A stretch of DNA of 64,000 bases. It comes from Aphelenchoides besseyi (taxonomy: Eukaryota > Nematoda > Chromadorea > Rhabditida > Aphelenchoididae). The DNA lies in NCBI GenBank assembly GCA_024699855.1, contig JAMPIQ010000001.1, forward strand, positions 14,570,001 to 14,634,000, in the 5' to 3' direction. Positions 6,065 to 22,469 of the stretch are shown here, one piece after another. Below the pieces are notes generated by a model, which saw only the letters and a program-made list of their open reading frames with translations, did no database searches and was not told the origin of the DNA. The first letter of the stretch is position 1. Each line of letters opens with the position of its first letter. A program made the translations under genes and the position numbers.

Positions 6065-6150
6065 TCCGCTAAGCCTGGTTCGAACAGGCGACCTATGGAT
6101 TCCGACCCCTCATTTACAGTCCATCGCTCTTCCAACTGAGCTATTAGCGG
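6065..6150 (-). tRNA. tRNA-Tyr (GTA) with 13-nt intron
   Basis: Reading the minus strand, the acceptor stem CCGCTAA pairs exactly with TTAGCGG plus discriminator A. The D arm, an ATGGA/TCCAT anticodon stem and a perfect T arm (GCCTG TTCGAAC CAGGC) are all present. The loop begins CTGTAAA, giving anticodon GTA, and is 13 nt too long, so an intron sits just 3' of the anticodon as is usual for eukaryotic tRNA-Tyr. Length without intron is 73 nt. It is predicted to be functional. Confidence 0.95.
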
Positions 6151-6263
6151 CTTGACGGAGAGCAGCGAAAAAGCCCACTTGTTCTCCCGCTCCACGCAAA
6201 GAGCACACGCACATTCCATCGAGTAGACGGCCGCTCCACCGCTCGTCCGACAACCGTGTGTTC

Positions 6264-6372
6264 GTCTACACCTCGTCGAATGCACGCCGTCTGATCTGGC
6301 AAGTTAAGCAACGACGGGCTTGGTTAATACGTGGATCAGAGATGCCTTCGGAATTCCAAGTGATGGATGCTT
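6264..6372 (+). rRNA. 5S rRNA-like sequence, shortened, possibly pseudogene
   Basis: The core matches nematode 5S rRNA: GTCGAATGCACGCCG, TCTGATCTGGCAAGTTAAGC (the A-box/loop A-B region), GGATCAGAGATG and a final GATGGATGC. Compared with the C. elegans 5S as I recall it, about six bases near the 5' end and four after CGCC are missing, and the 5' and 3' ends do not pair well. It is therefore either a divergent copy or a decayed one. It lies head to head with tRNA-Tyr. I found no spliced-leader RNA beside it. Confidence 0.6.
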
Positions 6373-8731: not shown

Positions 8732-8734
8732 TAA

Positions 8735-8896
8735 CAAGGGAAGGCTCATTAGCCACCACGCGATATTCACGCATACTGTATGCCAAAAAACGCGCCTTTT
8801 CAAGAGGAATCTGATGGTGTTATCAGTTTTTGCTATGGGCTACCCTGCGTGGACTTATGGGCCTTTGAAGTTCCACGCAAATTGCGTGCTTTTTGG
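8735..8896 (+). repeat. Left terminal inverted repeat of the 5-kb element
   Basis: Starts CAAGGGAAGGCTCATTAGCC, includes GATATTCACGCATACTGTATG, and ends near TTTTTGG. Its reverse complement is at 13565-13727 with very few differences. Confidence 0.9.
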
Positions 8897-9400
8897 ACGC
8901 TTTTTTGGACGTTTTTTTTGGCGATGCGCGGACGCAAGCGCGTTTTGCGAGTAGATTCGACTTTTTTGAATCGCCTTCGAGTTATGAGCGACAAGTGCGC
9001 TTGAGTCTGTTTCCTTGAGCAATCTAGTGGTTGGTCCAAGAGTGGGTACGTCGATGAACGATCGGAAAGATGCTAAAAGCCAGCTGGCTACTGTTTCAAT
9101 TACCAATCGATCGAAAGATGTCAAGAGATACCGAGATGTACCCGTTTAGCATTCATCAGATGTGCTCATTGCGAGCAGTATTATTGTTTTCATTGCATCT
9201 TTACTTCCGACCAAGCGCACCTACATCTTTAATTGTTGTCACAGTAAAATTTTCAGGTTCACTTCAATACCCCAACTGATTTAATCAAAGTACTACTTAA
9301 AATTGATTAGAATTACAAAAAGTTGCAAAACGAATCAAAAAATTGCAATCGACCGGCTTTGATCCGATCTAATTAACCTTTTTTGCCTTTGATCTCTTGT

Positions 9401-9490
9401 GATTTGACCGCTCTGTGAATCGAACCCGCTGGACGCTGTTGGATTTGCACCGGAAGGTACAAAGCCAACGGCTTAACCACTAGACTAATC
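9401..9490 (-). other. tRNA-like sequence inside the 5-kb element
   Basis: On the minus strand the sequence opens GATTAGTCTAGTGGTTAAGC, very close to a D arm/A box, has a GTTGG...CCAAC stem in the anticodon position with an enlarged loop, and then GGGTTCGATTCA, close to the B box. The first and last four bases (GATT/AATC) can pair. The T stem is poor and the anticodon cannot be set, so this is a degenerate tRNA or tRNA-derived promoter rather than a working tRNA gene. Confidence 0.5.
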
Positions 9491-10149
9491 AGTAAAACGA
9501 TTTGGATCGTGATTTGTAAATCTTATATCAACTCGTATTGGAGAGCGACCAGAATGGCGATCTAGAAATAAACAGAATGTTGAGCGCGTTGTGCGAATTG
9601 CGCAACAACAAAAGCACTGGCAAGCAGTGGAATTTAGCCGACAATTTGAAAAAAATGGTCGACCAGTGGTTTTGCCGACAATCAAAAGAAACTGCGGCTG
9701 CGGAACAAAAAACATTCAAGTGTCTTCTCTGATGGAAAGATCACTTGTTGTTGTTGCGTTGCAACGAAAAGATGTTCACTGACGATTCTTGTAGAAAAAC
9801 TGCCGCGGCCTTAAAATGCCCCACTCTTTTCACTTTTCCTCCGACCACAGTCAAATCGTAGGGCAGATGGAAAAATTTGCGTCTACAAACATGTTGACCC
9901 GAACAACAAACTGTTCCGTAAACAGCCAAGTTGTTTCGATCAACAAAGTGGTTCGCAGAGAAGAGTCGAACGTCTTCGCGTGTGTGTTAATCGGACTTTG
10001 CCGTCGATGTTTTTCGAAGTCCATCGCGTACGTCGTTTTGTACTCTGCGCGTACGTTCGTTTTTTGCATTCGTGCCTTGAATTGATCTTGAAATTGTCGG
10101 GCGTTTCGTGTTTGTTTGGTAATTGATTTTATTGATCTTTGTAGTTGAA

Positions 10150-13142
10150 ATGAATTACGTCAACAACTCGCACGTTGATTACCTCTTCATGATCTTGATC
10201 CTATTATTGATTTCCATTGCGATCCAACTTAATAAACAAATCAATCGAAGAACGCGAAGAACGACCAACCAATCGACAACATTTACAACGGAAAACTCAA
10301 CAAAGAGGAAATCCTTTCCTTAAATTATGGAAACGAAATCCGTCCGTTAGTATTTGTTGAGGAAATCAAACGCTTCAGACATGCCACACCGGGACCCGCT
10401 CTTATCGGTGTGTTGGGAAATCAATTCTTCAGTCGTCACATCGACAATAACAACGGCGACAACCTGAGCGCTGACGAGGACAATGAACTGCGTAGACGGT
10501 TCGTTTTTATAATTGATGATCGTCAATCTCCAAAGTTCGCATTTATTTCCGTCGAAGAAGAAGGTGAAGGACAATTCAAAGCAACGTTATACGATCCCAA
10601 TCTCAACGTTCAGTATATGACGGCTTCTCAAATTGACGACGATCGACTAGACAAAACACGCGAATTTTACTTGAGGGTTTTCTCAGGATGCCACATTACA
10701 ACAGCCTACGAAAACATCTACCATCCGACGCCTCAAGAATGTGATTATGGAATTGCTTTGTGTTTTGTAGTTGAGAGATCATTTGAGCCATATGCCGTCT
10801 CAATTAATGATGAAGAACGCAATATACTAAAAAATCAGCAACACGTCAACTCGCTTCGTTATCAACTAGCAGCACATCACTTTTACGACAATCCCGAAGA
10901 TATTCCCGTTTTTGTCGTTGCCGATACAGTGGGTGCTCCGGATACGGACATTAATGAAAAAATTCGTGCCGAAACAGCCGCCGAAGCTCTACAGGTCACT
11001 AACGCAATCGACGACATGCAAATGGAAATAGATCCCACTCAACCAATAGAACCAATCATTGCCGAAGAATTTTCGATGGCTGCTGATAACCAAGAAGTTT
11101 CACAAATTTTGTTAGAATTACTTGCAATATGTGAAAATCCAGTCACCGAACCCAATGAAGAACCAGTATTCTCTGTGGACGAGCAATTCATTAGATCGAT
11201 TTCACATCCAACCGATGAATCAAGAGCCTTGGATTCGCTAATGGATTTCATACTCATCGGCAATATCGAGTGGTGGTTCAATCGAAGTATCGCTCATTCA
11301 ATACCTGATGAATTCAAAAGATGCGGTATGACTCAACAAATGATCGAAGATTGGAACTCAGCGTCATCAAAAATGTCTTACCTGGACATTAGGGCCATGC
11401 CAAACATACCTGAAGAAGGCCACTACAAAGTGCCCGAAGAAGTACGCAAATCATACACGCAACATTCCCTTCATTATTGGACCTACACATCCTTGCTGGT
11501 TCAAAAGCTGATGGACGTTCAACTTCATCGTGTGTTACCCGGCATCGAAGAATTTCAACAACAGATCAAAACAACTTTTCCGAACACCGACAATGTTTGT
11601 AATTCAGTATTCAGCAACTTCATCCGCTGTTTAACAAGACGTCGACCGAAAAGTAGTAACACTGCAACTGCCAAGAAAATAGCCGCTGAAACAAAGAAAC
11701 AACAAGAGAAACACTCCAAGGTTACATTGACAGCGCCAAATCAAAAGCCGGAAACGCTTGTTCTCGTAGATGCTCTTGACGCCCTGTTTACACTCGTCGA
11801 TTTCTTCAACGCAGTGAAAGACGAAGACGTCGATTTCAAATGGGCTATAGCCAACGCACAAAATGCGGGTCGTTCAATTACTTGGCAACAAAGTAGCTCA
11901 CAAGCATCACTTCATGCTATTCAAATCGCCCTGGGAATTGGCTCCGGACGTTTCAAGCATCTTGTCCGTCGAGATCTTACACATATAAAAAGTGGATTAT
12001 CTGCAGATATTCGAGCTGGCTCGGACGTCCAACACCTGTTCGGTAAAAACAAAGCGGTTGTTAATTACAACACGGTCAAAAGATGCATAAAGCCCGGATC
12101 CTTCGACAGTTTCCTGATTGGTTTCTTCAAATACACGAACGAAGAAGGAAAAGAGGAAGTATACAACATCCTCCGACCGTTTATAATAACCGGAGACACA
12201 GCCTCGGAAGTAAGTGACAACAAATTCAAGTTCATGAACTCAAAAGGCAAAGAAATGAACAAAATCGCGGCTGTGCTAATATATGAAGGAAGAGGAAGAG
12301 CAATTTTGGACTACAGACAAATTGCTCTTCAAATTGAAGACACTGAAGGGCCAATAATCGCGTTGAGCGGATCTTCGAAGACTTCCAAACTTCGTAATTT
12401 GGCAAAGACAATTTCCATCAAATACGACGCAAAGATTGTAATGTGTACCGACGGCGATGTCACCGGTCTTCAAACAATCCGAGCGTTGGCCGATCATTAT
12501 TTCAAGGAATTCACACCTAATGATGATGCAGATGTCCCATTTGAACCTGTCGATCCAGATGCCCTACCAGATGATGAAACCTCAAAAGATGTTCCAGGCA
12601 CTTCCAACGACGATTTTGATCCGAAGAAGTTTTCCGTTGCATTTCTGTGGCCATCACTTGTGCTACATAATTGGATAGATGTGTTCTTCCCGCCGTTGCG
12701 ACAAGAATACTGTCAACGGTGGAATAGGGAGGTTCTAACAAAACCAGAGAATACATTGTCCAACCTGATGAATAATATGGAATTAACCAGGTACAACCAA
12801 TGGCAACCAGGAAAAGACCCACTGGATATAAAACAATCGGATGGAAGAACACCAGTTTATTCTGACTGGCAACGACGTTATTTTGCTGGTTATCTTGCTG
12901 CAATCGACAAGATAACAAAAATTCTACGAAGAAGGGACCAACTCAACGAAGAACAACGAAAGTTCTACAAGCGGCTCCAGTTCGAATACTGTGTGGCGCT
13001 CACCGAGTGCACATTTATGCACAGTTACGATCTACCAATAACGCGCCGCACATCGCTTGTAATCGATGCAATACACGGAAAAGACTACTGGAATTATCCA
13101 TTACCTGATGTCCCCCAATGCAAAACTTATTTACAACCGTAA
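10150..13142 (+). CDS. Large Toprim-like protein of the TIR element
   Basis: The main open frame runs from about 10233 to 13142 with no in-frame ATG near its 5' end. A likely model is exon 10150-10173, intron 10174-10250 (AAG acceptor), exon 10251-13142: 971 residues, in frame, starting six bases after TTTGTAG, a plausible trans-splice acceptor. Seen: a hydrophobic-acidic motif IYEGRG (Glu near residue 687), then MCTDGDVTGLQTIRAL with Asp 742, Asp 744 and Gly 747. A Glu followed about 55 residues later by DxDxxG is the Toprim metal-binding pattern of type II topoisomerases, gyrase B and Spo11/TopoVI-A. After an acidic linker comes FLWPSLV, similar to the WPSL following Toprim in eukaryotic topoisomerase II. 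The N-terminal part has QECDYGIALCF, faintly like Ulp1-type proteases but without a convincing His. No ATPase motifs and no assignable active tyrosine. Function in transposition is inference. Confidence 0.7.
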
Positions 13143-13564
13143 CTTCGTGTAACATACAGTTATTTAATGAAATTTGTCACGATTTAAACCGTCTAAACCG
13201 CGGTCTCTTTATCTTCTATCGCTGTGAGCAAATAATGAATGAATCAATGAATGAGTATTTAATGATCAATAAAAGAAATCTCGCAATCGATAGACTAGCA
13301 CACCAAAGTCCGCTGTTCGAAGGCGCTCTTTTGATCAAAAAAGAGCGCGTCCACTTGCCAAAAAAAAGTGACAAAAAAGCGTCCGGACGTCGACCAAAAA
13401 CGAGCAAATGGCATTTCTGCGCGCTTTCTTTCCAATCAAGGCAATTTCAAGGTGATTTCAGGAAAGTAGCAATTTCACGCAAAGGGCAAAAAAAGAAAAA
13501 CAACGTGAAATTTTTTTTGGTCGTTATTTTCCCTACATTTTCCCTTGGAATCGAGGACGAGAGA

Positions 13565-13727
13565 CCAAAAAGGCACGCAATTTGTGTGGAACTTCAAAGG
13601 TCCATAAGTCCACGCAGGGTAGCCCATAGCAAAAACTGATAACACCATCAGATTCCTCTTGAAAAGGCGCGTTTTTTGGCATACAGTATGCGTGAATATC
13701 GCGTGGTGGCTAATGAGCCTTCCCTTG
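13565..13727 (-). repeat. Right terminal inverted repeat of the 5-kb element
   Basis: Reverse complement of the left repeat; ends CCTTCCCTTG followed by TAA. The inner boundary is where the two copies diverge, at a run of A. Confidence 0.9.
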
Positions 13728-13802
13728 TAAGCTTCATTCCGTAACTTATTGCAAAATCAAACTTTAAAATTGAAACTCTTGTTTTCGACACATTCGACAA
13801 AA

Positions 13803-14102
13803 ATGATCGACGCAAATGTGGTGATTGGACTTTTGATCGAGAAGTTCGAAACTCCATCTGATGTATCGACTCGCAATGCTAACTGTATGGAACGTCGACT
13901 TGCATGTTTGATCGAGACAATTGAAGACCAATCACACAGTAAGTTAAACGACGAATCAAGGTTTTAAGATATGCAGTTATCTGTCCGACGATATGGAAAC
14001 GGTCCCAATCAGAAACAATTTCACTTTCACTTCAAAGACAACGAAATACGATTTTACGGCAATCATCGCCAATCAATTATCCACAAAGTAAATATGCAGT
14101 AG
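13803..14102 (+). CDS. Small hypothetical protein (89 residues)
   Basis: Exons 13803-13938 and 13969-14102 join in frame over a 30-nt intron with GTAAG donor and AAG acceptor. The first half is acidic-hydrophobic (MIDANVVIGLLIEKFETP) and the second half basic and aromatic (QKQFHFHFKDNEIRFYGNH). No signal peptide. It begins 76 bp right of the 5-kb element. The unusual acceptor and short size make it tentative; an unspliced reading would end at 13967. No family recognised. Confidence 0.4.
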
Positions 14103-15749: not shown

Positions 15750-17160
15750 CAGTGGCGCTCACTGAAATAGTGACGATCGCTTTTAATGGCCTTTTTTCAA
15801 TAAGAAGTGGCCATACCCTTATTCTTAATGACTTCCAGGCATCGACGCTTCATTGACTCAACCAATACACAACATCGTGAAGTCGGAATTGCTTCCCATG
15901 CTTCCTGGATGATGTGAAACAGTTGTTTCTTGGATTTCGGCTTAAGCCGCTTGATTTCTTTGTCCACGTCAATCCAGAGCATTTCGATGGGATTCAAATC
16001 CGGGCTCTGAGCTGGCCACTTCATGACAGTGTATCCGTGATCAGCTAGAAACTCCTTCGCCTTCTTTGATATGTGTTTTGGATCATTGTCCGCCTAAAAA
16101 AATAAGGTGCGACCTTAAAATGAATGATTTACCTGGAAAATCCAATCTTCCAACTGGTTTTCTTTGATGAACGGACGCGGCACACCATCAAGAATCTGAT
16201 CTGTGTAAACGTGCTGATCCATAATTTCTTAAATACGGTAAATAGGCCCTGTACCATTCGCAGACACGCAACTCCAGACCATGACTGACTTTGGATCATG
16301 CTTGACAGTTGCTTTGGTGTACTTTGCGCTAAATTCTTTACCAGGACGGCGTCGAACATACGCTTTTCCACCAGATCCAGTTGAATTGAACTTCCATTTG
16401 TCTGTCCACAAAACCTAAAACAAGTGTGCGAATTGAATCCAAAAATCGCTTACCTTGTTCCATTGTTCTTGGGTCCAATTCAAGTGCTCTTTAGCGAATT
16501 CAAGGCGCGCTTTTCGGTTCTTCTGACTGATAAAAGTTTTCTTGCGTACTACGCGTCCCATCAAACCAAATTCGTTGAGCCGGCATTTCACTGTACTGAT
16601 GGAAATTGGCTTCGAAAGACGACCTTGAAGTTCGTCGTGAATATCAACGGCTGTTTTGTGACGATTTCCTTCAGGCAAAAGGTGGATTCTGCGATCATCA
16701 CGTGCAGTAGTCTTGCATTGACGTGTTCGGACCTTGTTCTGAACGGAACCAGTGCTTTGGACATGTTTGGCGGCTTGAAAACAGGCATTCTTAGACAGAC
16801 CCACTTTTTCGGCAATCTTTTGATACGAATAGCCATCTTGGTGCAAATCAACGATGCGCTGGCGTTAAGCAGGAGTAACATGAGTAGAACAATCCATTAT
16901 TAACAACACAAGATAAAAAATTGAAGAAAACCGCCATTAAAAGCGATCGTCCCTATTTAATTAAAAACGGGTGTTTTCATTTTTTAATGTGAATTCTGAT
17001 AATAATTAAAGTTTAAATTGACAGATATGGTATTGTTGGATAGCTGAAAAGTAGGTCTACAACTTTGGTCTATAAGATACCATAATTTTCCACAAATTTG
17101 CTTTCAAAAATGCAAGTTATTGCAAAAATTCGATCGTCCCTATTTCAGTGAGCGCCACTG
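15750..17160 (-). mobile_element. Tc1-like DNA transposon, inactive copy
   Basis: Ends are inverted repeats beginning CAGTGGCGCTCACTGAAATA (15750 and 17160), flanked on both sides by TA. A second internal copy of the CGATCGCTTTTAATGGC block near 16935 suggests a longer inverted/direct repeat arrangement. The minus strand carries a DD34E-type transposase. Two in-frame stops make this copy non-autonomous, though the near-perfect ends mean it could still be moved by enzyme supplied from elsewhere. Confidence 0.9.
15797..16897 (-). pseudogene. Tc1-like transposase with in-frame stops
   Basis: Starts ATG at 16897 (MDCSTHVTPA) and ends at 15797. Seen in order: a helix-turn-helix region (GYSYQKIAEKVGLSKNACF), first catalytic Asp in WTDKWKFN, second Asp in ADNDPKH, and Glu in SPDLNPIEMLW, the DDE triad of Tc1. 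Two introns (about 16397-16453 and 16095-16133) have GT..AG ends. TAA codons interrupt codon 11 and the stretch after GPIYRI near 16230. These could be C-to-T changes. Without them the coding frame is otherwise whole, so inactivation is recent. Confidence 0.85.
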
Positions 17161-17162
17161 TA

Positions 17163-17532
17163 GATTCAGTTGTGACAGTGAGATGCAAAGCACGTGCACA
17201 TCACGAACGACCGTTCCGTCGGCCAAAAGTTCAAGTCACTTAGCGCGAGAAGGGGGCGAAGTCCCAAAAGATCAAAGCTAAATGCTTTTGCGACCAAATA
17301 AAAAGGCCCGATCGGAAGCGATCGGGATTGCAATCCGTCCACTGGTGACGAACTTATTAGTTTTCTGCGCGCGTGTGCCGATCCGTCGGTACGACTTCAA
17401 GAAAAGACCATGGCCTCGGAAGGAATGATGCCCGAGCGAAGAACGACACGACGAACCTTTACTTGACATGAAGAGTTTACGGAAAGACAAATGTTGACTT
17501 TTTAACGACCACGAAAGGTGCATTTTTTCGAA
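17163..17532. other. Intergenic/promoter of the next gene
   Basis: No gene. The last 40 bp (GACTTTTTAACGACC onwards) are shared with 14319-14358, marking a duplicated promoter. Confidence 0.5.
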
Positions 17533-20500
17533 ATGAGCTTTGTAAGTTTAAAAATTTATTTTGGAACCTGGAGTAAATTATTGAGCCTGTGTAGTTTTTC
17601 TCGAGCTCATAGTGACGATCATAGGACCGACCAACGTTACGTTGAACTATGTGAAGACGCCTGACCACATTGGTATATTAAAACTGACCAACACCGTTGT
17701 TGTTGTTTGTAAGTTCAAATGTTTACAGCTAATGTTTTTTTAGGCTATCACATCGAACAAAACATGCGTTGCATTGTTCTGCGAACAAATTCCATTGACG
17801 GAAAAAGACTTTCCAATTGGATACCCGGCCGAATTGGTTTTATCTACGAGCTTGTTCAATTAAAGTAAGCATTCCTTGTTAGAAGACCTCGTTAAACAAA
17901 ATGCTCCTGGAGTGGATCGGCGTAAGTTAAATTAAGATCATTGCTCCCACTTGAAATTAAAAGGCCTTGAAAAGGTGATGTTAGGTCTCAAACGACTGAA
18001 TTACAAGCAACTCGGATTCGTTGTTTATCTCTACAATTGCCTAACTCGAACAAGAAGTGAATTTACGCCGGATAGTGGGTTACACTGTTTTACGGACATC
18101 GATTGGGTAGAGATGTTCTATCATTCGGCATGGCAACTCAAAACCCGAAAGGAGGCAGAAAACGGAGAATTCGGCTACGGCTACGAAACTGTTTCAAAGT
18201 CAACGTTGAGACACTCTAATAACTACATTGACGCTGCCGGGTAAACAAGTACCAACCCTTTTCCAATAACCAATTTCTTAGAAACAAACGACAATTACTA
18301 ACACAGAAAATGCTTGTATACGTCGTTTACGGATACTCGTTCGCAAAAGGCAACACGGCTTCGCATCTATGTGGACGTCCGTTGTGTCTTTCACCCAACC
18401 ACATTTATCCCGAAGGCATCTCAGTAAATATCAGCAGAGAAGCGTGTTTTAGAAATGCAGTTACGCCCGAAGGGGAGGATCCCAATTCATCCCCGCCGAT
18501 TCATCCCCGCCCGATTCATCCCCGGTCCAATTCATCCCCCATAACTCTTCATCCCTTCTAAAAATCCCCCTCGATTTCTAACACAAACATTCTAGAGTGA
18601 AGGTAAAAAGAAGAAGGTCAATATGTAAAATTTATAGAATGCGCGAAAAGAGTGAAAGTTCTAAGGAAAAATCAATTTACTTCCACAGTCTCTCTAGCTC
18701 GAGTTTTGACGTTATTCAACACGATTCGACGTCCAACTTCTCCTGGTGAACTGTCATGTCCCGAATGTGTTGGATACTCGTGAGCAACTTCACCATCCGG
18801 AACTTGAATCAAACCGGCGTTTGTACGAACTCGAGCACGACATCCAGTTTTTTGAAACAACGAACATCGCCATGAAATGTATCCATCTTTCAACTCTCGA
18901 TGTTTCCAAAACGTGTGACCATTGACGACGAGAATCTTCTGTTCACGATTTGACCGTAGCATAATAAGAAAATACGATTTGGATGACAATTGAAATAGTA
19001 GTAAGAAACACTGACGAAACAACAAGATCTGAGAAAAAAATGTTTGTGTGCTCGTAGTTTCTTTAAATGATTTCAAATTTGCGATCAAAAATTTTAGGGA
19101 TGAAACGTTATGGGGGATGAATTGGACCGGGGATGAATCGGGCGGGGATGAATCGGCGGGGATGAATTGGGACGCACTCCGCCCGAAGAATGCCCCCATA
19201 TTCCACGGTGTCTAAAGAGTAAGAGAAGTTTCAACGATCGAATATACCTGACTTTTTAGATGTGACAAAACAAGAAAAACAAGGACCCGAGAAGAAGGAG
19301 ATTAGAGTCATGTAAGCCCGCAACTTACAAAAACATATGTGTACTGTTTTATAGAAAAAGCGATCCGGAATTCTTCTTCACAGAAAAAGATGGAAGTAGT
19401 CGTGCACGAGTTGAAGGTCATGAATATTACCGTGAGGATAGCACCGGGAACACCTGGAATTGTATTAACCGACGTTATCACCGGTGTTCTGCTTGTTTTA
19501 TTCTCGACCGAAACCTTGATCGAATCAGAATGAAATATGAAATACATACACCAGAATGTACTGCAAACCAGCCTGAAGCGACGAGAGAAATGTAAGTTGA
19601 AAAAACATCGTCCATAACGCTAAATAAGTGTTATGAGTGGTAAGTCAATCCCGATGCTTATACAGGGTGTCCAGCTAAAATTGAAAATTTGAAGAGCTCA
19701 TATCTTTTTTGTTAGTTGACCAAATTCGATGCGGTTTTTGTGTTTGATTGGAAATCTATGGGAATTTTGTCTTTTCTCAAAAGATTTCCAGAATTTAGCT
19801 TGGAACACCGTGAAAATTCTCGATTTCTGGAACGCGTGCTTTTTCCGCTCGCTTTCTCTTTCGTTTGCATTGCAAAGGAAGTCTGGTTGTTTCCAATGAG
19901 TTGGTCCGCTCAAGAAAAGACGTACTGTGTTTTGGTGTTTGCAAAGACTGGCAGTGGAACTATCGTTCAACGACAATTCAGAAGACATTATGGGTTGAGT
20001 TGGCGTGCCTCTGTTCCATCGATTGCAAATTTTGCACGATGGACTGAAGATCTTTTGGATTGTGGCAGTTGTGAAACAAAAAAAAGAAATTGATCACGGT
20101 TTGTCTCCAGTTCTTTGACTCAAACTTGTTCAGATTTGCTACAAATCAAGAAAAAATTGAAGCAGTTTTGGAAACGATACGCAACGATCCAAATTTATCT
20201 GTGCGTGCAATTGCAAATTTGGACGATGTGCCGTCCAAGTCTTCGGTCCACCGCATTTTGAAGGTGTGAATCTTTTTGTTCTTTTGATCTTTTCTTTCTT
20301 TAGTCTCAAAAGTTTCACCCCTACAAGTTGCAATTAATCCAAGAAATTGCCGGTGAAGCACCACAAGCACGAATCGAACACGCAATTTCAATTCTTGATC
20401 AAATTGAAGCGCAACCCGAATTTCTTTCAAATCTCATCTTTTCGGATGAGGCGCACTTTCACATATCCACGGTCACGTTAACCACCATAACTTCCGTTAT

Positions 20501-22469
20501 TGGTGTGATGAGAATCCAAGCTGGTAGGATTATCGTGACTGCCGATGATTTTCACAAAAAATTCTGCACAGGTTTCGAGAAGAACCGCTTCATTCACCGA
20601 GACTGACTGTTTGGACGGGAATTAGCAAGCGTGGAGTGGTTGGACCTTTTTTTACCAGACAAAACGTAACCGGGCTCTCATATCTCAATCTTCTTCGTGA
20701 TCAAATGATGCCAGTTCTTCTCACATGGCTTCACTACCACGAGCTTGTTTTCATGCAAGACGGAGCACCTCCGCACTTTGCTGTGGCTGTCCGTCAATGG
20801 TTGGACGACGTTTTTCCGTTGCGATGGATGGGTCGGGAGGATCCCAATTCATCCCCGCCGATTCATTCCCCCCCAATTCATCCCCGCCGATTCATCCCCG
20901 CCCGATTCATCCCCGGTCCAATTCATCCCCCATAACGTTTCATCCCTAAAATTTTTGATCGCAAATTTGAAATCATTTAAAGAAACTACGAGCACACAAA
21001 CATTTTTTTCTCAGATCTTGTTGTTTCGTCAGTGTTTCTTACTACTATTTCAATTGTCATCCAAATCGTATTTTCTTATTATGCTACGGTCAAATCGTGA
21101 ACAGAAGATTCTCGTCGTCAATGGTCACACGTTTTGGAAACATCGAGAGTTGAAAGATGGATACATTTCATGGCGATGTTCGTTGTTTCAAAAAACTGGA
21201 TGTCGTGCTCGAGTTCGTACAAACGCCGGTTTGATTCAAGTTCCGGATGGTGAAGTTGCTCACGAGTATCCAACACATTCGGGACATGACAGTTCACCAG
21301 GAGAAGTTGGACGTCGAATCGTGTTGAATAACGTCAAAACTCGAGCTAGAGAGACTGTGGAAGTAAATTGATTTTTCCTTAGAACTTTCACTCTTTTCGC
21401 GCATTCTATAAATTTTACATATTGACCTTCTTCTTTTTACCTTCACTCTAGAATGTTTGTGTTAGAAATCGAGGGGGATTTTTAGAAGGGATGAAGAGTT
21501 ATGGGGGATGAATTGGACCGGGGATGAATTAGGACGCACTCGGATGGGTCGAGGTTCACAATCGTCGCCACCTCCGCTTCGATGGCCTCCATATTCCCCA
21601 GATCTCACACCATGTGACTTGTTTCTTTGGGGATAGGTGAAGTCCCAAGTTTATCGGACACAGTCGTCAAATTTGGACGAGCTGCAACGACGAATTGAGG
21701 AAGTGTTTGTTAACATCAGCCAAGAGACGATCAATAATGCCGTTGATAATTATCAAGACCGCCTGGAAAAGGTGATAGAAGTCAACGGCAAAAGGGTTGA
21801 GATCTCAGCATAAAGACTTGAAAAATTTTCGTGGACCAACCCCCTCCCCTTTGCAATGCAAATGAAAGAGAGAGAAAACGAGCGGAAAAAGCACGCGTTC
21901 CAGAAATCGAGAATTTTCACGGTGTTCCAAGCTAAATTCTGGAAATCTTTTGAGAAAAGACAAAATTCCCATAGATTTCCAATCAAACACAAAACCGCAT
22001 CGAATTTGGTCAACTAACAAAAAAAATATGAGCTCTTCAAATTTTCAATTTTAGCTGGGACACCCTGTAAAATAATTCTAATCTACAACGAAACCATACT
22101 TATGGCAGTAGGCAGCTGAACAACCGAACTTCGTTCACACACTTCCAACCGACCGGTCAATTTCTTTCATTCCAAATTTAGGCCACTCATGACGTAATCA
22201 GACAAAACTTTAGTAACAAACCAATATTTTAGTTGGTCGCGTGACGATTACAAAGGCCTCAACCACTTGATTTCCAAACTTTTTCGATACACTGGACATC
22301 AACGAGGTGACCAATTACAAAGACGTTGCGCCGAAATCTCTAGTAACCATGTCCGACGGATTGCTTGTTGGAAACGACTACTTGGTAAATGGTATTTTAT
22401 TGAAAGTTACATTTTTGTAATAATTTTGTGGCTACTTCAGTGCAAAATAACGTGGACGACTTCTTGTAA
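17533..22469 (+). CDS. zf-His_Me (HNH-like) plus FLYWCH gene, interrupted by transposons
   Basis: Exons 17533-17541, 17606-17708, 17744-17836, 17883-17921, 17964-18240, 18282-18472 and 19189-19218 (with a 707-bp insertion between the last two), 19260-19311, 19355-19591, then 22233-22384 and 22441-22469. Removing the insertion and one 9-bp duplicate restores the frame exactly. The motif SHLCGRPLCLSPNHIYPEG followed by REAC and ECPHIPRC is the zinc-binding loop of the zf-His_Me_endon (HNH-type) family known in nematodes. Exon 19355-19591 encodes a FLYWCH-like finger (GHEYYRED, TWNCINRR, C and H ligands). A mariner element sits in the next intron, and the join to the last exons is uncertain. With the exon insertion the gene is probably broken in this haplotype. 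Confidence 0.6.
18473..19179 (-). mobile_element. Mutator-like element copy 1 (FLYWCH cassette)
   Basis: 707 bp flanked by a perfect 9-bp duplication CGCCCGAAG (18464-18472 and 19180-19188), the length typical of Mutator-like elements. Ends are inverted repeats of about 70 bp built from repeated ATTCATCCCCG units; only the outermost eight bases differ (GGGAGGAT left, GAGTGCGT right when read inward). It carries one intact FLYWCH open frame on the minus strand and no transposase, so it is non-autonomous. It lies in an exon of the zf-His_Me/FLYWCH gene. Confidence 0.9.
18672..18962 (-). CDS. FLYWCH zinc-finger protein of the Mutator-like element
   Basis: 96 residues from ATG 18962. The pattern VVNGHTFWKHRELK, YISWRCS, GCRARV and HEYPTH fits FLYWCH: F/Y, W, two Cys and two His ligands. 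FLYWCH fingers are DNA-binding and are often found at the N-terminus of Mutator-type transposases in animals, so this is likely the DNA-binding part retained after loss of the catalytic part. A copy with the same length and near-identical sequence is at 21081-21371. Confidence 0.7.
   Translation of the reverse strand: MLRSNREQKILVVNGHTFWKHRELKDGYISWRCSLFQKTGCRARVRTNAGLIQVPDGEVAHEYPTHSGHDSSPGEVGRRIVLNNVKTRARETVEVN
20834..21540 (+). mobile_element. Mutator-like element copy 2, interior inverted
   Basis: About 707 bp flanked by the 9-bp duplication GGATGGGTC inside the mariner transposase. Outer ends are in the same order as copy 1 (GGGAGGAT on the left, GGACGCACTC on the right), but the interior, including the FLYWCH frame, runs in the opposite direction. 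The left repeat has one extra ATTCATTCCCC unit and the right repeat has lost two units. Confidence 0.9.
21081..21371 (+). CDS. FLYWCH protein of Mutator-like copy 2
   Basis: 96-residue frame with the same FLYWCH motifs as 18672-18962 and no visible disabling change. Identity between two copies in different host sites suggests recent spread, or continuing selection on the finger. Longer in-frame extension upstream into the CATCCCC repeats is an artefact of open repeat sequence. Confidence 0.65.
   Translation: MLRSNREQKILVVNGHTFWKHRELKDGYISWRCSLFQKTGCRARVRTNAGLIQVPDGEVAHEYPTHSGHDSSPGEVGRRIVLNNVKTRARETVEVN

Follow-up and report, generated by a model that had tools for sequence, protein, structure and literature searches.

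The window analysed here is a 64,000-nucleotide stretch of the genome of the nematode Aphelenchoides besseyi (assembly GCA_024699855.1, contig JAMPIQ010000001.1, positions 14,570,001 to 14,634,000), and at its positions 8735-13727 lies an element bounded by terminal inverted repeats (TIRs). A sequence-only reading had taken it for a single 5-kb element with one topoisomerase-like Toprim protein and no recognisable transposase. Much of that description holds: the inverted arms 8735-8897 and 13565-13727 are identical at 158 of 163 positions without a gap, TAA stands at both edges, and a frame open from stop to stop over 968 codons (10236-13142) fills most of the interior. The single element, however, resolves into two, a TIR element of the 1.27-kb type and a 3.77-kb insert that carries the gene (Table 1). 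Judged by its sequence, the outer element is an old, non-autonomous relic of a Tc5-like DNA transposon, and we consider it highly probable that the locus represents a Tc5-like element holding a passenger copy of a separate, dispersed gene unit.

Table 1. Features of the nested element (window positions)
Feature	Position	Strand	Remarks
Left TAA of the 3-bp target duplication	8732-8734		site C-TAA-G
Left TIR of the Tc5-like element	8735-8897	+	starts CAAGGGAAGG
Left part of the Tc5-like element	8735-9562		joined directly to 13337-13727 in the gene-less copy L004
Remnant of the Tc5 transposase C-terminal domain (PF04236, Transp_Tc5_C)	9032-9208	+	one in-frame stop; 52.6 bits, E 2.7e-12
GATC at the left edge of the insert, possibly a 4-bp duplication	9559-9562		
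3.77-kb insert with the Toprim-like gene, including the right-hand GATC	9563-13336	+	missing from gene-less Tc5-like copies
Short frame resembling a first exon, with a hydrophobic run like a membrane span	10150-10256	+	common to other copies; here out of frame with the main open reading frame (by eye)
Toprim-like open reading frame, 963 codons	10251-13142	+	about 367 N-terminal residues present in L051 missing
Candidate Toprim core from Glu 679 through Asp 736, ahead of Gly 739	12285-12458	+	
3' untranslated part with AATAAA	13143-13332	+	3' end recurs elsewhere in the genome
GATC at the right edge of the insert	13333-13336		
Right part of the Tc5-like element	13337-13727		includes the right TIR, 13565-13727
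Right TAA of the target duplication	13728-13730		

A CTNAG target, a TNA duplication and CAAGG ends are the signature of Tc4 and Tc5, nematode transposons that are pogo-related and belong to the Tc1/mariner group. The window element shares with them the long TIRs starting CAAGG, the TNA duplication at a CTNAG target (its flanks read CTAA and TAAG) and a remnant of the Tc5 transposase C-terminal domain; it differs from them in that its transposase is a stub and its interior is filled by an unrelated gene. Since the part of the Transp_Tc5_C match beyond the stop reaches 35.8 bits by itself against a cut-off of 27.4, the view that no transposase could be recognised does not stand, and in a sibling element (L012; loci in this genome carry L numbers) the same domain scores 62.6 bits, above that cut-off. 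Throughout the searched genome (47.4 Mb, of which 18.1, 17.8 and 10.0 Mb fall in three large contigs; the window is on contig C1), there are 52 matches to this domain, one of them in the window element and others within sibling elements of the same TIR family. The repeat ends are not single copy either. At least 40 matches to the left TIR were scored (51 candidates), their flanks mostly following CTNA/CAAGGG...CCCTTG/TNAG with exceptions that include L011, L054 and L018, and 11 of the 16 elements paired by hand have the same 3 bp (TAA or TTA) on either side; this count omits L059-L063, L065 and the row L053a, which repeats L002, and the right end of L052 was placed by hand. The three-base TAA/TTA duplications would also suit a PIF/Harbinger-type element, with its TWA duplication, that had captured a gene, and DDE_Tnp_4 genes are present in the genome (at least 14 matches). 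Yet all of the 14 DDE_Tnp_4 matches listed are more than 10 kb away from each of the 40 TIR matches listed, Tc5_C sits inside the elements, and TNA at CTNAG together with CAAGG ends points to Tc4/Tc5; we regard a PIF/Harbinger origin as extremely improbable. Under the Tc5 interpretation, the outer element would be a non-autonomous transposon of the nematode-type branch of the Tc1/mariner-pogo group, a cut-and-paste element that duplicated the 3 bp TNA at its CTNAG sites and was probably moved by a DDE transposase of Tc5 type acting in trans.

The nesting itself is seen directly in copies that lack the gene. The 1.27-kb element L004, found elsewhere in the genome, matches window 8734-9568 and 13337-13739 with no interruption between the two segments; the join reads GGC-GATC-[insert]-GATC-AAAAAAGAGCG in the window and GGC-AATC-AAAAAAAGAGCG in L004. 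The same gene-less join is found in L007, L009, L012, L018, L051 and L054 and, in a variant form, in L003, while L011, in which the insert's first bases remain, looks like a deletion product. In L051 the gene occupies another position of the same TIR element. The clearest case is the pair L052 (with the gene) and L058 (without it), which have the same Tc5-like ends and flanks that are 92.9 to 97.0% alike; by this comparison they are one Tc5 insertion in two versions. Empty-site comparison, which the sequence-only reading had proposed, thus yields a contiguous counterpart in L004 and a gene-less version of the L052 insertion in L058, although the latter is not a perfect empty site because some adjacent Tc5 sequence is gone as well.

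The timing of the insertion can be approached by comparing the window with L052. Their inserts are 97.7, 98.5 and 100% identical across three pieces, whereas their Tc5 parts are only 88 to 91% identical, apart from a fully identical run of 29 bp next to the insert; the outer flanks give no match. Since the Tc5 backbones differ more than the inserts do, the insert appears to have arrived in the window and in L052 after the backbones had diverged, and a composite moving as a unit between the two was dropped on the same grounds. The inner unit, a copy of a dispersed multi-copy gene for a protein of 963 to 1331 residues with a probable Toprim-like domain, would have entered the Tc5-like element once the latter already existed, the gene being a passenger of the TIR element. 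Given the greater likeness of the inserts, different Tc5 copies probably acquired the gene either through independent insertions into a favoured site or through template-directed repair of a gap. A further gene copy, L035, abuts internal Tc5-like sequence at the site used in the window, in the opposite orientation, and an 11-nt stretch at this site in L002, L005 and L006 resembles the L035 join, a likeness that is short and suggestive only. It seems that the gene unit has also entered this site in reverse orientation, the site being either a preferred one or that of an old ancestral insertion.

The gene is dispersed in the genome separately from the TIRs. Its protein has at least 50 matches (47 of 81 candidates scored), which fall into 33 places on the three large contigs when matches less than 10 kb apart are merged. 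Among 30 fetched gene loci, some of them overlapping, the TIR is seen only at L021-L023 (the window, L052 and L051), the other 27 showing no such TIR within flanks of about 1.5 kb, and among L024-L050 only L035 shows other Tc5-like element sequence. Conversely, 13 of the 16 hand-paired TIR elements measure 0.5 to 2.0 kb and have no copy of the window's gene. Because gene-less elements and gene loci with TIR-less flanks are so frequent, and because Tc5 remains lie inside, the Toprim protein is no defining feature of the TIR element. It had been proposed that the element may use a Toprim enzyme to move or copy itself; on this model the locus would be one transposon, its ends cut and joined by its own Toprim protein. 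This would accord with the fact that TIRs enclose all three of the gene copies that run unbroken for at least 960 residues, and with some constraint on the frame: the ratio of nonsynonymous to synonymous substitutions (dN/dS) between copies is 0.18 to 0.70 in the pairs computed, and the corresponding ratio of proportions (pN/pS) comes to 0.37 for residues 670-760, compared with 0.59 for 1-669. However, 60-residue segments span pN/pS from 0.10 to 2.46, the last full one (901-960) being below the core, so that constraint is not special to the core; the figures fit a gene under constraint in some lineage and are silent on whether the window copy works. Against such a transposon stand not only the gene-less TIR copies and TIR-less gene copies that prevail among those examined, but also the gene's two different positions in the same TIR element (L051 and the window) and the remnant of a different transposase; L058/L052 and L051 already contradict it, and we judge it very improbable. 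A Toprim-powered inverted-repeat element is not supported, and the protein looks like a passenger, not the engine.

Several observations nonetheless weigh against a Tc5-like element with a passenger gene. Stop-free matches of at least 960 residues are exactly the three gene copies inside TIRs, which would not be predicted for a purely accidental passenger, and since most gene-locus flanks reach only 1.5 kb, a distant TIR could be missed. Five of the 16 paired elements (L051, L054, L055, L002 and L005) have no matching 3-bp duplication; L052 and L058, both among the 11 that do, are one insertion, so the independent count is 10 of 15. Furthermore, no uninterrupted Tc5 transposase was found between the CAAGGG TIRs of this family. 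Elsewhere in the genome, L083 has an open frame of 474 codons with HTH_Tnp_Tc5 and Tc5_C above their cut-offs and a DDE_1 match below its own (18.7 against 22), but this frame is only 35% identical to the window remnant over 65 residues and represents another subfamily, and its own TIRs were not seen; the enzyme that mobilised the window's subfamily is therefore not pinned to L083.

Copies of the gene unit have recurrent ends. Its shared 5' region gives 48 matches, and its shared 3' end 23 matches for a first type and 13 for a second; L074 and L075 are short copies in which both end regions are kept and most of the gene is gone. Two unlinked copies, L073 and L075, agree from CGTGAGCCAACTC onward, which delimits a 5.8-kb copy at C3:9383199-9389030. 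In this copy, those frames of at least 55 residues that gave a match matched the Toprim-like protein (the only protein they were compared with), and one other frame and the membrane exon gave nothing over the cut-off against Pfam. The longest main frame, of 1331 codons, is that of L051. By eye, a membrane-type exon precedes the main frame in some copies, being out of frame in the window and in L052, and a two-exon layout with a GT-AG intron can be traced in L052, L038, L072 and L073, with the 3' end just past AATAAA. Apart from the GATC pair of the window, no clear target duplication of the gene unit was seen. The alignments of the family, A1 with 31 rows and A3 with 40, were picked from the match list; they skip the overlapping loci L022, L023, L031, L039, L041, L042, L043 and L046, and exclude the row L050:1501-1845, which was misaligned (31% identity). 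L024 and L033 share a 246-bp module, found on the 3' side of the gene in the former (1058-1303) and on its 5' side in the latter (959-1204), perhaps reflecting permuted or tandem copies.

How such a unit came to be dispersed may be explained in more than one way. The intron and the 3' end, as well as the four copies in or beside Tc5-like sequence, would be in line with a host multigene family that is not itself mobile and was scattered by Tc5 capture and segmental duplication. This is quite possible, if somewhat short of probable: set against it are the spread over 33 places on three large contigs, the recurrent 5' and 3' ends and the internally deleted copies L074 and L075 that keep both end regions. 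It is tempting to speculate that the inner unit is itself an undescribed eukaryotic mobile element of 3.8 to 5.8 kb, with no TIRs seen, whose sole recognised product is a DnaG-like Toprim protein, accompanied in some copies by a membrane-spanning first exon, and that this protein helps to copy the unit to new sites, including the preferred Tc5-like site; we consider this decidedly unlikely. Retrocopies, suggested by the common 3' end after AATAAA, are not favoured, the intron being retained and no poly(A) tail seen, and a Helitron-like 5' TC end, considered at one boundary only, was rejected since this boundary is not terminal, the shared sequence running upstream to CGTGAGCCAACTC in L073/L075. 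The way in which the gene family spreads could be new.

We also addressed the question of whether the protein contains a Toprim domain. The Glu and the DxDxxG motif 55 residues on, pointed out in the sequence-only reading, are indeed present after hydrophobic strands, at Glu 679 (codon 12285) and Asp 734/736 (codons 12450 and 12456). The pattern occurs in none of 27 E. coli decoys, in all 3 known Toprim proteins and in 59 of 5000 shuffles. The E, D, D and G are conserved in all 10 rows having the four columns, and every one of the 12 alignment members spanning the core weakly matches at least one Toprim model (PF01751 in 10, PF13155 in 11). The scores of the motif flanks were reached by 56 of 5000 shuffles for DnaG, 11 for T7 gp4 and 132 for ParE, and they exceed shuffles more than the DnaG-ParE or gp4-ParE comparisons do. 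All this argues against a coincidental resemblance. On the other hand, every Pfam Toprim score is below the cut-off (for PF01751, 14.4 bits in the window protein and 18.0 in the best member against 23.1), hhalign against DnaG or T7 gp4 was not significant and a decoy, T7 gp2.5, scored higher, and unrelated families have similar or better E-values (Pus10_N_euk 0.0026, LIF-R_Ig-like 0.0085, guanine deaminase 0.0068, an uncharacterised phrog 0.0024). A genome search with PF01751 listed 5 matches without this gene family among them (all but L070 were examined), and no PDB relative was found by sequence. Coincidence is in our view somewhat unlikely. A Toprim domain is thus plausible, though not proven, as the weak model matches, flank scores and motif speak for it but no Pfam score reaches its cut-off; its fold and any enzyme activity are what we infer from sequence.

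If the domain is genuine, its likeness would be nearer to the DnaG/T7 primase type than to topoisomerase II, by both spacing and flank score. With DnaG and T7 gp4 it shares a hydrophobic strand followed by Glu-Gly and, 44-55 residues on, a strand with DxDxxG; it differs in the spacing (55 here, 44 and 50 there), in giving no profile match above the cut-off and in that Pfam reported no primase or helicase domain. Topoisomerase II and ParE likewise have the EG and DxDxxG motifs, but the spacing in ParE is 72 and the present frame ends about 230 residues past the motif; beyond the weak Toprim matches, Pfam found no topoisomerase domain in the protein. In yeast Spo11 the Glu to DxD spacing is near 55, a possible likeness to Spo11/TopoVI-A in spacing; Pfam reported no Spo11-type domain in the protein. 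The host TOP2-like exons found with PF01751 are separate genes, and a topoisomerase II origin was rejected. Of the earlier suggestion that a host topoisomerase fragment had been captured, gene capture comes close to what is seen; the topoisomerase source is not favoured because spacing and flank score are nearer DnaG/T7. In the same search, a host topoisomerase II Toprim exon appeared with identical scores at two places (L068 and L069, C3:1918925 and C3:2309747), reflecting duplication or an assembly effect, and L067 on contig C20 resembles, by eye, a bacterial gyrB/parE-like protein from a contaminant or an associated bacterium.

Searches for relatives of the protein gave none at E 10 with seeds taken from the first 500 residues of the query, and none at E 1 with either a C-terminal alignment or the 1331-residue form (about 8000 candidates scored in each case); viral contigs held no relative either. 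As the share of animal genomes in the searched collections is uncertain, these missing relatives are weak evidence. An Ulp1-like protease in the middle of the protein was a by-eye impression for which Pfam gave nothing.

Other Tc5-like copies and neighbouring features of the window deserve mention. In L053 (C1:2590470-2594343) two Tc5-like copies lie in opposite orientation, with TTA common to the outer ends and mismatched inner ends, as if they formed one larger element, and at L071 (C3:950300-955100) a further copy of the Toprim gene unit has, in an intron-like stretch, a Tc5-like element with 384-bp TIRs. A short frame to the right of the window element (13803-13967, MIDANVVIGLLIEKF...) resembles by eye the frame start inside the Tc5-like element of L071. 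On the minus strand of the Tc5-like part, at about 9390-9500, a tRNA-like stretch with A- and B-box-like words was noticed by eye and was not reported by Rfam at the gathering threshold. Farther away, a tRNA match (6065-6150, minus strand) adjoins a 5S rRNA match (6258-6371, plus strand), and a Tc1/mariner-like element with inverted ends CAGTGGCGCTCACTGAAATAGTGACGATCG lies by eye at about 15755-17165. The segments 18514-19171 and 20872-21529 form a 658-nt inverted duplication of 100% identity, the right arm of which is overlapped by an open reading frame (20709-21371) with a FLYWCH zinc finger (PF04500, E 2.7e-10).

The locus resembles Pack-type transposons such as Pack-MULEs in being a TIR element with a gene foreign to it. 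It differs from them in its cargo, a gene that is a repeat in its own right and occupies two different positions among Tc5-like copies. To our knowledge, no eukaryotic transposon class with Toprim as its mobility or replication enzyme has been described. If only the nested arrangement is true, a Tc5-like element would here carry a repetitive gene foreign to it, a caution that inverted repeats framing one open reading frame do not always make up a single functional element. Should the inner gene family prove self-mobile, an animal genome would be using Toprim chemistry as an enzyme of mobility or replication.

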